Origin: Pseudomonadota bacterium
GTDB lineage: Bacteria; Pseudomonadota; Gammaproteobacteria; Burkholderiales; Sulfuriferulaceae
Direction of reading: 5' to 3'
Length of the DNA: 64,000 nt
Assembly (NCBI GenBank): GCA_021845925.1
Contig: JAJZUW010000003.1
Span: 124,001 to 188,000 of the forward strand
The notes beneath the pieces were generated by a model that was not told the DNA's origin, did not search any database, and saw nothing but the letters and a program-made list of their open reading frames with translations. The position numbers were made by a program, and so were the translations under genes. Each line of letters begins with the position of its first letter. Position 1 is the first letter of the stretch. Below are positions 44,251 through 63,337 of the stretch, one piece after another.

Positions 44251-45534
44251 TCAGTCGTGCTGATCGTCTGTATGTGCTTGATCCGGAACAAAATGCAGCA
44301 CCGCGCTGTTGATGCAATAGCGTTTTCCGGTCGGCGGTGGACCATCGTCAAACACATGGCCAAGATGGATGCCTGAACTGGCACTGATGACTTCCACCCG
44401 ATGCATGCCATGACTGTCATCGTTGCGCATCAGCAATGCGCCCGGAACCGGCTGGAAGAAACTGGGCCAGCCTGAACGACTGTTGAATTTGGCGTCGCTG
44501 CGGAACAAGGCCTGTCCTGTGACCGGGTCGACATAAGTACCTGGCGCGTGGTTATCCAGCAGAGAGCCGGTGAATGGCCGTTCGGTACCCTGATGGTAAG
44601 CGATGGCCTGCTGTTCCGGTGTCAGGGTCTCATGACCAAGCCAGGACCAGAAGCGGTCTGCGACGCCATCATAACCAGTATACCGGCTGACTTCCTTGCC
44701 TTGTCTGAACAGAACAATGGTCGGGGTGGCCCAGACAGACTGGCTCATGTGCCAGCCAGTCGGAGCCTGGCCAGACAAGGTGGTGCGGATGGGGACGGGC
44801 GAGCGCCAGTGGTCCAGAATGTCCTGGTGAAACCGCTTGCAGAACGGGCAGTCTTCACCTTCATATACCACCAGCTGGACCGGTGCCAGTGCGGCACCAG
44901 ATAAAGGTGAATGCCCGCTGGTCGACCCGGCTGGCTGGTGGGCATCTGGATATGCCACGCCTGTGCCACCCAGACCACAGTAGCCTTGCGGGTGTTTGAG
45001 CAGATAGTCCTGGTGATAGCTTTCTGCCGGCCAGAAATGCTTCAGTGGCGCAATTTCGGTGGTGATCCGGCCGTAACCGGCCTGACTCAAGGCCGATTGA
45101 TAGACAGCCAGACTGTGTTGGATGACGGGCAGCTGATCCGGACTGGTGTAATAAATCGCGCTGCGATAGTTGGCGCCGATGTCATTGCCCTGCCGGTTGC
45201 CCTGGGTGGGATCGTGATTTTGCCAGAACGCCGCCAGCAGGCGTTCCAGCGGGAGCTTGTGGCTATCCCAGACGACTTCAACCACTTCCGCGTGCACCGG
45301 CTGGGTGCTGGCCCGATGGGCTTCAGCCAGGACAGACTCGTAATGGGGGTGATCACTGGTGCCGCCGGCATAGCCAACTTCGGTCTTCAGGACGCCGGGA
45401 AGTGCTGCCAGCCGTTTCTGGGCGCCCCAGAAGCAACCCATGCCAAAGACAATGGTGGAAGGGGTGTTTGTGGTTTCGGCAAGAGAAGACATGCTAAAAC
45501 AAAGTCCGATGACAAGAAGTAACCATTGTTTCAT
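44251..45534 (-). CDS. msrAB: Periplasmic MsrA-thioredoxin-MsrB methionine sulfoxide reductase fusion
   Basis: 427 residues. Signal peptide at 1-19 (LLLVIGLCFSMSSLA). MsrA domain about 27-195 with catalytic C34 in FGMGCFWGAQ and YCGLGGTGVAYPDAH. A thioredoxin-like domain about 218-300 with C229-P-F-C232 and the cis-Pro stretch WATPTIVLFRQG. MsrB domain about 305-418 with catalytic C407 in RYCINSAVLHF. The MsrB lacks the zinc CxxC pairs, and the usual resolving cysteine of the GCGWPSF region is replaced (NSRSGWPSF). It repairs both sulfoxide epimers in the periplasm. Neisseria PilB has Trx first; here Trx sits in the middle. It may be recharged by DsbD, also in this window. Confidence 0.9.
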   Translation of the reverse strand: MKQWLLLVIGLCFSMSSLAETTNTPSTIVFGMGCFWGAQKRLAALPGVLKTEVGYAGGTSDHPHYESVLAEAHRASTQPVHAEVVEVVWDSHKLPLERLLAAFWQNHDPTQGNRQGNDIGANYRSAIYYTSPDQLPVIQHSLAVYQSALSQAGYGRITTEIAPLKHFWPAESYHQDYLLKHPQGYCGLGGTGVAYPDAHQPAGSTSGHSPLSGAALAPVQLVVYEGEDCPFCKRFHQDILDHWRSPVPIRTTLSGQAPTGWHMSQSVWATPTIVLFRQGKEVSRYTGYDGVADRFWSWLGHETLTPEQQAIAYHQGTERPFTGSLLDNHAPGTYVDPVTGQALFRSDAKFNSRSGWPSFFQPVPGALLMRNDDSHGMHRVEVISASSGIHLGHVFDDGPPPTGKRYCINSAVLHFVPDQAHTDDQHD

Positions 45535-61498: not shown

Positions 61499-63337
61499 TC
61501 AGGCTCCGGTCGCCCTTGCCAGGAAGTCGAGCAACACGGCTGGCGGTTGCAATCCAACCAGCGGAGAACCCAGTGCATGCCCGGTGGAATCCAGACGCAG
61601 CATGACTGGCGGGCCAAAAACGGCATACCGCTTGCGCAGCTGTTCTTCTTCGGCTGAATTGCTGGTCAGATCGGCGCGCAGCAGGCGGAAGCCGGACAGT
61701 GCCTTTTCAACTTGCGGATCTTTTAGCGTGGTATCGTCCATTTCACGACAGGAAACGCACCAGTCGGCATAAAAATCCAGCAAGGTGGGGCGGGTGTCTG
61801 GCAGACTCAGTTGCTGCTGCAGTTCCGTTTCGCTATGCACAACGGTGAAGCGGGGCTCCTGCGAGCCAGCGACACTGGCAGTCGCGTTGGTGCTGGCCAG
61901 GGCGGCCAGTGGTTCGGTCAGTGACCTGGCACCTGACAGCGCGCCGACCAGCAACGAAATGCCCAGCACCAGCAGGATCAGTGCAAAGCCTTTCCACAAC
62001 CGCTGCCAGCCCGAGGCATTTGCCGGCAGCGGATCGATGGCTTGCCAGGCCACGCCGGACAGAATCAGCAGGGCGGACCAGAGCAGCATCCGGATCTCGG
62101 CCGGCAGCAGCGGGCTGATCAGCCAGATGGCCATACCCAGCATCAGCACGCCAAACAACTGGCGAATGCCATTCATCCAGGCGCCGGCGCGCGGCAGAAT
62201 GGCGCCGGACGTCAGACCAATCAGCAACAGCGGTGCGCCCATGCCGAGCGCCAGAAAAAACAGGGCACTGCCACCCAGCCAGAGGTCGCCGGTACGTGCG
62301 ATCCAGGCCAGGGCGGCAGCCAGGGGCGGCGCGACGCATGGGCCGACAATCAATGCCGACAGCGCACCCATGGCAAACGTGCCGAGCAGATGGCCGCCCT
62401 GGAACCGGTTGCTGAGTACGGTGAACCGGGTTTGCAGGCTGGCCGGCAACTGGAATTCGTACAGGCCGAACATCGACAGCGAGAACACGACAAACAGCAG
62501 GGAAACCACGCCGAGTACCAGCGGACTTTGCAAACTGTTGGACAGCAGGGTGCCGGACAACGCTGCAGCCATGCCGGCCAGTGTGTAGGTGATTGCCATG
62601 CCGGCAACGTAAGCCACGGACAACATGAACGAGCCCAGACGGGAATGCTGGTTCTGGCCCACAATGATGCCGGAGAGAATGGGAATCATCGGAAATACGC
62701 AGGGGGTCAGGGATAGCAGCAGACCGGCGCTGAAGAAGGCAGCCAGGACCGTCAGCAGGGAACCGCTGCCGAGTATGCCAGCAATGCCGGTGGCGGAGCC
62801 TGGTTGGGTCGTGCTGGCGGATACTGGTGTTGCGGTAGGTGCAGCTGGTGCCGTTGGTGCTTGGGCGGTTGCGGTTGCGGCTGCGGTTGCGGTTGCGGTT
62901 GCGGCTGCGGCTGCGGTTGCGGCTGCGGCTGTGTCTGCAAACTGGCTATGATAATGAATCGGGGCATAGCAGATGCCTTGTTCGGAACAGCCTTGCGCCG
63001 TGACATCCAGCGTCACCGGCTGGTTGCCCTGACGGGTAAACGGCAGCACCACCGACAACTGGTGGTGAAAAATGGTCTCGCGACCCAGCACCGGATCGTC
63101 ACGCAGCTCGCCGGGGGGAATCACCGGTGTGCCGGCAGTGGCGCCATGCAGCGTGAATTGCAGCTTGTCGCGGTACAGATAGCATTTGTCGGCGATTTTC
63201 CAGGACACTTCAATATGACTGGCGTCAGTCATGTGTGCCGAATAGACGAATGCCTGAGCCGGATCAAGAAAACTGTCGGCCAGTGCTGGCTGGTGCCAGA
63301 ACAGGACAAGCAGGCAGAAAAGTCGCCAGATGCGCAT
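61499..63337 (-). CDS. dsbD: Thiol:disulfide interchange protein DsbD
   Basis: 612 residues. Signal peptide of about 20 residues, periplasmic alpha domain about 21-133 with the C117/C123 pair (GCSEQGICYAP), a low-complexity Ala/Thr linker (134-180), about eight membrane spans with C213 (LTPCVFPMIP) and C334 (VGPCVAPPL), and a C-terminal periplasmic thioredoxin domain with C527-V-S-C530. It passes electrons from cytoplasmic thioredoxin to periplasmic targets such as DsbC, CcmG and possibly MsrAB. The linker is coded by a 6-bp tandem repeat. Confidence 0.95.
   Translation of the reverse strand: MRIWRLFCLLVLFWHQPALADSFLDPAQAFVYSAHMTDASHIEVSWKIADKCYLYRDKLQFTLHGATAGTPVIPPGELRDDPVLGRETIFHHQLSVVLPFTRQGNQPVTLDVTAQGCSEQGICYAPIHYHSQFADTAAAATAAAAATATATAAATATAQAPTAPAAPTATPVSASTTQPGSATGIAGILGSGSLLTVLAAFFSAGLLLSLTPCVFPMIPILSGIIVGQNQHSRLGSFMLSVAYVAGMAITYTLAGMAAALSGTLLSNSLQSPLVLGVVSLLFVVFSLSMFGLYEFQLPASLQTRFTVLSNRFQGGHLLGTFAMGALSALIVGPCVAPPLAAALAWIARTGDLWLGGSALFFLALGMGAPLLLIGLTSGAILPRAGAWMNGIRQLFGVLMLGMAIWLISPLLPAEIRMLLWSALLILSGVAWQAIDPLPANASGWQRLWKGFALILLVLGISLLVGALSGARSLTEPLAALASTNATASVAGSQEPRFTVVHSETELQQQLSLPDTRPTLLDFYADWCVSCREMDDTTLKDPQVEKALSGFRLLRADLTSNSAEEEQLRKRYAVFGPPVMLRLDSTGHALGSPLVGLQPPAVLLDFLARATGA
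62865..62930. repeat. Hexanucleotide tandem repeat (GCGGTT/GCGGCT, 11 units) inside dsbD
   Basis: Eleven contiguous 6-bp units, alternating GCGGTT and GCGGCT without interruption. On the coding strand they encode Ala-Thr/Ala-Ala dipeptides (residues about 136-157 of DsbD). Unit length is a multiple of three, so slippage changes linker length without frameshift. Confidence 0.85.

Follow-up and report, generated by a model that had tools for sequence, protein, structure and literature searches.

Locus and domain layout of the fusion protein

Within the window, by which we mean the entire 64,000-nucleotide stretch that was analyzed, a gene on the minus strand encodes MsrA, a thioredoxin-like (Trx) domain, and MsrB in a single chain. 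The coding part spans 44254–45534 (427 aa), and the stop codon occupies 44251–44253. The open reading frame reported in an earlier note on this DNA is real and its coordinates are right, with the addition that it lies on the minus strand, which that note left unstated. The gene sits, in the opposite orientation, between two neighbors that we take from their ORFs to be mnmE and mnmG. The features are as follows (window coordinates).

44251..45534, minus strand: whole MsrA-Trx-MsrB gene with a probable export signal, 427 aa
45478..45534, minus strand: probable Sec signal peptide, residues 1–19, MKQWLLLVIGLCFSMSSLA/ET (read by eye)
44977..45456, minus strand: MsrA domain, residues 27–186 (Pfam PMSR, E 1.1e-52)
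45433..45435, minus strand: C34, MsrA catalytic cysteine, in GCFWG (sequence and alignment)
44977..44979, minus strand: C186, resolving-type cysteine of MsrA, in GYCGLGG, missing from the earlier note (alignment)
44635..44886, minus strand: SoxS-like thioredoxin domain, about residues 217–300 (Pfam, sequence and fold comparison)
44839..44850, minus strand: C229-P-F-C232 redox pair (sequence and alignment)
44722..44724, minus strand: P271, cis-proline position, in ATPT (alignment)
44284..44625, minus strand: MsrB domain, residues 304–417, one-cysteine and zinc-free (Pfam SelR, E 2.1e-41)
44569..44571, minus strand: T322, a position that is Cys in a Xanthomonas campestris MsrB and in those family members whose thioredoxin is broken (alignment)
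44473..44475, minus strand: S354 in SRSGWPSF, the usual position of the MsrB resolving cysteine (alignment)
44314..44316, minus strand: C407, MsrB catalytic cysteine, in RYCIN (sequence and alignment)
61499..63337, minus strand: DsbD, proposed as the electron donor; contains DsbD_N, transmembrane, and thioredoxin-like domains (domain matches)

The order that the earlier note had read from the letters, MsrA (C34), thioredoxin-like (C229/C232), and MsrB (C407), is borne out by Pfam and by the residue positions. The first domain scores 178.7 bits against 23.7 with PF01625 and 164 against 108.1 with TIGR00401, and it carries both C34 and C186. The last domain scores 141 bits against 24.9 with PF01641 and 143.5 against 113.05 with TIGR00357, and it has the catalytic RxCxN cysteine, C407. 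The protein falls short of two models of fused proteins, namely PRK05550, an MsrB/A bifunctional protein with the domain order reversed (292.5 bits; cut-off 330), and PRK14018, the PilB type, whose domain order also differs (238.1 bits; cut-off 522).

The cysteines of the protein are C34, C186, C229, C232, and C407, plus C12 inside the signal. In the first 22 full-length sequences of the family, own included, exactly the five (34, 186, 229, 232, 407) are invariant, with no sixth, which excludes a chance assembly of the architecture. In the larger family set described below, the C186 position is Cys in all 127 sequences that cover the column, the CxxC is kept in 131 of 134, and the cis-Pro is kept in all but one of those 131. 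The resolving role of C186 and the cis-proline role of P271 are assigned by analogy with other MsrAs and thioredoxins, respectively. The MsrB domain was said in the earlier note to lack the usual resolving cysteine and the zinc CxxC pairs, and this is correct: S354 stands where the usual cysteine would precede GWPSF, and the cysteines of the two zinc pairs are absent. Cys354, which corresponds to "Cys63" of other MsrBs, occurs in 0 of the 134 family sequences.

The middle domain matches Thioredoxin_2 over residues 221–296 (E 6.9e-7, 30 bits with a cut-off of 27). With a profile of 15 members, the best solved-structure match by sequence was 3d4t (E 1.9e-6, over nearly the whole domain). A fold comparison, which was a second look at 999 chains and not a search, listed as the top thioredoxin folds 3dml (Z 13.2, rmsd 1.6 over 88 residues) and 3d4t (Z 13.1, rmsd 1.8 over 89 residues), both of them SoxS of Paracoccus pantotrophus according to their entry titles, with E. 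coli thioredoxin variants below them (Z 10.8 and lower). With its thioredoxin fold, CxxC, and cis-Pro, and with SoxS nearest in both sequence and fold, the domain is best described as SoxS-like; SoxS itself, however, is a stand-alone periplasmic thiol-disulfide oxidoreductase that acts on SoxYZ in sulfur oxidation, according to PMC10451225. Thioredoxin_2 was matched by 15 of 15 middle domains and Redoxin or AhpC-TSA by none at E 0.01, which, by sequence, sets the middle domain apart from the TlpA type. In a predicted structure of the protein (mean pLDDT 73.7), the thioredoxin part is among the better regions; distances between the domains are not readable from the model because its pTM is 0.45.

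Distribution of the architecture and known systems

We collected 134 distinct family sequences (own included), of which 124 are MsrA-Trx-MsrB, 7 are Trx-MsrB, and 3 are MsrA-MsrB with a decayed middle domain. This set takes in the window protein (L001) and L267, a Trx-MsrB contig-edge fragment of G727 (with L264), and a second copy in G1158 lies outside it. When named genomes were scanned, 14 of the best 80 loci proved to be full-length with the same order, in Methylophilus, Achromatium, Lysobacteraceae, Halothiobacillus, Rhodocyclaceae, Nitrosospira, Nitrosomonas, Gallionellaceae, Piscirickettsiaceae, and others. Among near genomes, 8 of 41 (own included) carry MsrA-Trx-MsrB. Full-length matches were found in 3/398 genomes of the phylum sample, 6/369 of the class sample, and 22/399 of the order sample (one more is split over two contigs); the order of G482 yielded 37/62 (one frameshifted, and the middle domain decayed in three further), and the family of G610 yielded 51/125 (one cut at a contig end). 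Each count takes in the own genome wherever it was sampled. Therefore, few of the genomes overall have the architecture, and in some families it is common. Nothing in a plasmid collection matched at E 1e-60, and a phage collection gave 35 records, all below 60% identity, one of which spans 97% of the query at 36.9%. In one genome (G1151), the MsrA-Trx-MsrB gene L312 is present as two overlapping frames, owing to a frameshift or a sequencing error. In same-genus genomes that have no fusion (G001, G007, G008, G011–G014, G017), separate MsrA and MsrB matches are found instead.

The order was described in the earlier note as unlike that of Neisseria PilB (Trx-MsrA-MsrB), and the Pfam order agrees. 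The MsrB of PilB keeps its resolving Cys, and the usual cysteine is likewise present in the PilB-type protein L094. This gene (778–2478 in G026), from the same order as the window's genome, encodes Redoxin, MsrA, and an MsrB with GCGWPSF, and Pfam places a Redoxin/AhpC-TSA domain at its N-terminus (Redoxin E 2.4e-9). PilB (PRK14018) resembles the window protein in joining three activities in one chain, in being periplasmic, and in having DsbD as the donor, the latter two being presumed for the window protein. On the other hand, according to PMC6210582, the PilB thioredoxin is N-terminal with a TlpA fold, whereas that of the window protein is in the middle and SoxS-like. The same paper reports that intramolecular reduction by the PilB thioredoxin is efficient for the MsrB domain only and that this thioredoxin is itself reduced by nDsbD in vitro. 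The MsrAB fusions of Helicobacter, Treponema, and Streptococcus (7e43, 5fa9, 3e0m) also have MsrA followed by MsrB in one chain, but they have no intervening thioredoxin domain, and their MsrB has a Cys in GCGWPSF.

The 134 family sequences rule out that the order is unique to the window protein, as does a 2018 review (PMC6211008), which names the order MSRA-Trx-MSRB for archaea, draws a parallel with bacterial MSRAB, MSRBA, and Trx-MSRAB, and raises the idea of a thiol relay. The archaeal proteins are likened to ours by the name of their domain order, not by sequence. As to whether the order is common and characterized, which the earlier note had left to be checked, it occurs often in certain families and has been published for archaea, and a search of the open-access literature (subscription papers lay mostly outside its scope) turned up no biochemical work on it. 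What is new is the trade-off between Cys322 and the thioredoxin, the three-domain order being already known by name in archaea.

Thioredoxin integrity, position 322, and export

Could the embedded thioredoxin serve as the resolving cysteine that its MsrB lacks? The CxxC and the cis-Pro are both intact in 130 of the 134 family sequences; 127 of these lack a second cysteine in MsrB, and the 3 with Cys322 (L106, L271, L272) make up a divergent clade. On the other hand, Cys322 is present in 4/4 members with a broken thioredoxin. In three of them (L237, L313, L314), both CxxC cysteines are lost while the middle domain is still present, and in the fourth (L089) the cis-Pro is lost. The L089 gene (1423–2673) keeps the CxxC, and its cis-Pro region is rewritten in one open frame, with extra cysteines at 261, 276, and 322. 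Position 322 aligns with a Cys of the X. campestris MsrB 3hcj, presumably the resolving "Cys31" of that protein, a name for which our literature search found no paper. The X. campestris enzyme (3hci, 3hcj) also lacks the usual resolving Cys (GTGWPSF); unlike the window protein, it stands alone and has zinc-type Cys pairs. According to PMC7475093, the resolving cysteine of this enzyme comes after its N-terminal helices in the chain.

The association of Cys322 with a broken thioredoxin gives a Fisher p of 2.7e-6 when related rows are treated as independent. In a tree of 89 rows (the first 90 family sequences minus L267, with later-added sequences outside), the broken forms represent two separate changes, both within an 86-row clade in which no intact member has Cys322; with just two independent events, a tree-based sign test cannot reach significance (p 0.5). 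L089 is nearest to the window protein (88/86, not starred), and L237, L313, and L314 group as a starred clade whose branch is long, adjoined mostly by members from the window's order. Both placements are unsure because the branches are long. The comparative pattern lends real but limited support to the thioredoxin as the resolver of a one-cysteine MsrB.

The protein was called secreted in the earlier note, and an export signal is indeed likely from its N-terminus. A hydrophobic N-terminal segment was found in 110 of 123 evaluable full-length family sequences, and four more were just under the threshold (1.38–1.59); the hydropathy rule behind these figures is crude and unbenchmarked, is not a trained predictor, and left 4 rows without the searched motif unscored. 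By the same rule, just 2 of 68 MsrA-only relatives have such a segment (rows of at least 200 bits that hold the motif; the 140 fused rows of this scoring include repeats). Among the close MsrA-only relatives (L016, L017, L318–L325, L402), it is present in 1 of 11, L402 only; the GYC cysteine is kept in 8/8 of L318–L325.

Nine full-length sequences clearly fail the hydropathy rule. Six of them (L086, L087, L259, L300, L397, L400), some of which may be misread starts, still have the CxxC and lack Cys322, so an apparent loss of export is not enough by itself to bring in Cys322. The other three are L237, L313, and L314, which have lost both the export-type start and the CxxC and carry Cys322. This pattern would fit a relocation to the cytoplasm, which contains free thioredoxin; if the cytosolic thioredoxin took over, the export-type start would be expected to be lost. 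In L089, the N-terminus still resembles a signal peptide.

Furthermore, six split proteins with Trx-MsrB and no MsrA occur at three tree positions, all with the CxxC and, by eye, with export-type or lipoprotein-type N-termini. The converse form, MsrA-Trx without MsrB, is seen in L275 (1552–2544, minus strand), which has a CPYC motif, is divergent, resembles the divergent clade, and lies outside the tree. On balance, the thioredoxin appears to travel with MsrB more often than with MsrA.

How common is a one-cysteine MsrB outside the family? A class-wide alignment took in 110 of 124 SelR rows, leaving out the window's own row and 13 that were weakest or partial; one of the 110 is a family member (L237), and the comparison set is the other 109. 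The usual resolving position (354) is Cys in 16 of the 109 and something else in 93, and Cys322 occurs in 2. All four zinc cysteines are present in 85, and among the 24 without them the catalytic Cys is the sole Cys of the aligned domain in 19. These counts (93/109 and 19/24) rule out that the missing resolving and zinc cysteines are informative in themselves. The 19 one-cysteine MsrBs comprise eleven ORFs of 150–217 residues and eight MsrA-MsrB fusions (L187, L190, L193, L194, L199, L200, L201, L207); several of the fusions start with export-type sequences by eye. Our in-house domain profiles miss TlpA-type thioredoxins (L094 appears in them as MsrA-MsrB), and for this reason the eight long fusions were checked with Pfam, which gave no thioredoxin domain for any of the eight. 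A fused thioredoxin is, therefore, not indispensable to an exported one-cysteine MsrB. The MsrA of three of these fusions (L187, L194, L200) has a CFWC motif, and the other five have the same Cys spacing.

Proposed mechanism and alternatives

We propose that the window protein is a self-contained periplasmic methionine sulfoxide repair enzyme in which the embedded thioredoxin reduces MsrA, resolves MsrB, and is recharged by DsbD, a reading to which we assign a probability of roughly 0.58. MsrA would reduce S-sulfoxides via C34, and the resulting sulfenic acid would be resolved by its own C186 to give a C34-C186 disulfide, which C229/C232 of the SoxS-like thioredoxin would then reduce. MsrB would reduce R-sulfoxides via C407 and, with no resolving cysteine of its own, would have its sulfenic acid attacked by C229; the transient C229-C407 disulfide would be opened by C232. 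Finally, DsbD would pass electrons from the cytoplasm to the C229-C232 disulfide and so reduce it. We infer every chemical step, the order of the disulfides, the periplasmic location, and the role of DsbD as the donor from what the sequences offer, namely the architecture, the conserved cysteines, the co-occurrence of Cys322 with thioredoxin damage, the likely export signal in most fused forms, and a DsbD in the genome.

This scheme departs from the earlier note, in which the thioredoxin was to act directly as the resolving partner of both active sites. For MsrB, the comparative pattern fits; for MsrA, the proposal was too strong because MsrA keeps its own C186, which rules out the thioredoxin as its strict resolving cysteine. 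It is tentatively suggested, at close to even odds, that the thioredoxin acts as a built-in resolving cysteine of MsrB and that this dependence is reversible, such that when the thioredoxin decays, an MsrB Cys at the Xanthomonas position takes over. As part of this reading, the decay in one lineage would accompany an apparent loss of export.

The trade-off between the thioredoxin and Cys322 could also be a coincidence of chance or ancestry, with Cys322 being ancestral and kept or regained for other reasons. The small number of independent events, just two, leaves room for this, as does the divergent trio (L106, L271, L272), which may be an outgroup and combines Cys322 with an intact thioredoxin. 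However, both broken lineages fall within the 86-row clade whose intact members lack Cys322, and this cysteine is rare elsewhere (2/109), and we consider such a coincidence unlikely. A slightly less probable alternative is that the embedded thioredoxin serves MsrA only, by reducing C34-C186, while the one-cysteine MsrB receives its electrons from other thiols of the periplasm or from Dsb proteins. The commonness of one-cysteine domains among zinc-free MsrBs (19/24, including the eight thioredoxin-free fusions) and the existence of an MsrA-Trx protein without MsrB (L275) agree with it, but the six split proteins keep the thioredoxin with MsrB and not with MsrA, 10 of the 11 close MsrA-only relatives have no hydrophobic N-terminus (the exception is L402), and the extra cysteine of all four broken-thioredoxin members is in MsrB. 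Lastly, the middle domain might be mainly a disulfide isomerase or a structural spacer and not an electron donor. There are weak matches to DsbG, PedC/BrcD, and TrbB models (the DsbG and PedC/BrcD matches of the window domain are far under the cut-offs), but SoxS is the best thioredoxin-fold match, and with a CxxC in 131/134 sequences and a cis-Pro in nearly all of these, we regard this role as very improbable.

If the preferred reading, in which the thioredoxin both reduces MsrA and resolves MsrB, is right, the family provides a second route, besides PilB, by which an exported repair enzyme is given its own reductant. The recharging of one-cysteine MsrBs is incompletely understood, particularly outside the cytoplasm, and the intact, split, broken with an extra cysteine, and apparently relocated forms make a natural series for the role of a fused thioredoxin.

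The sole SelR match and the sole PMSR match of the 2.34-Mb genome (99.94% complete) are both in the window protein. A full DsbD gene lies in the same window, 16 kb from the fusion gene, and has the only DsbD_TM match in the genome; it is plausible that DsbD is the electron donor of the embedded thioredoxin. In this DsbD, a long Ala/Thr-rich stretch links the N-terminal part to the membrane part, ADTAAAATAAAAATATATAAATATAQAPTAPAAPT (window 62834–62938, minus strand).
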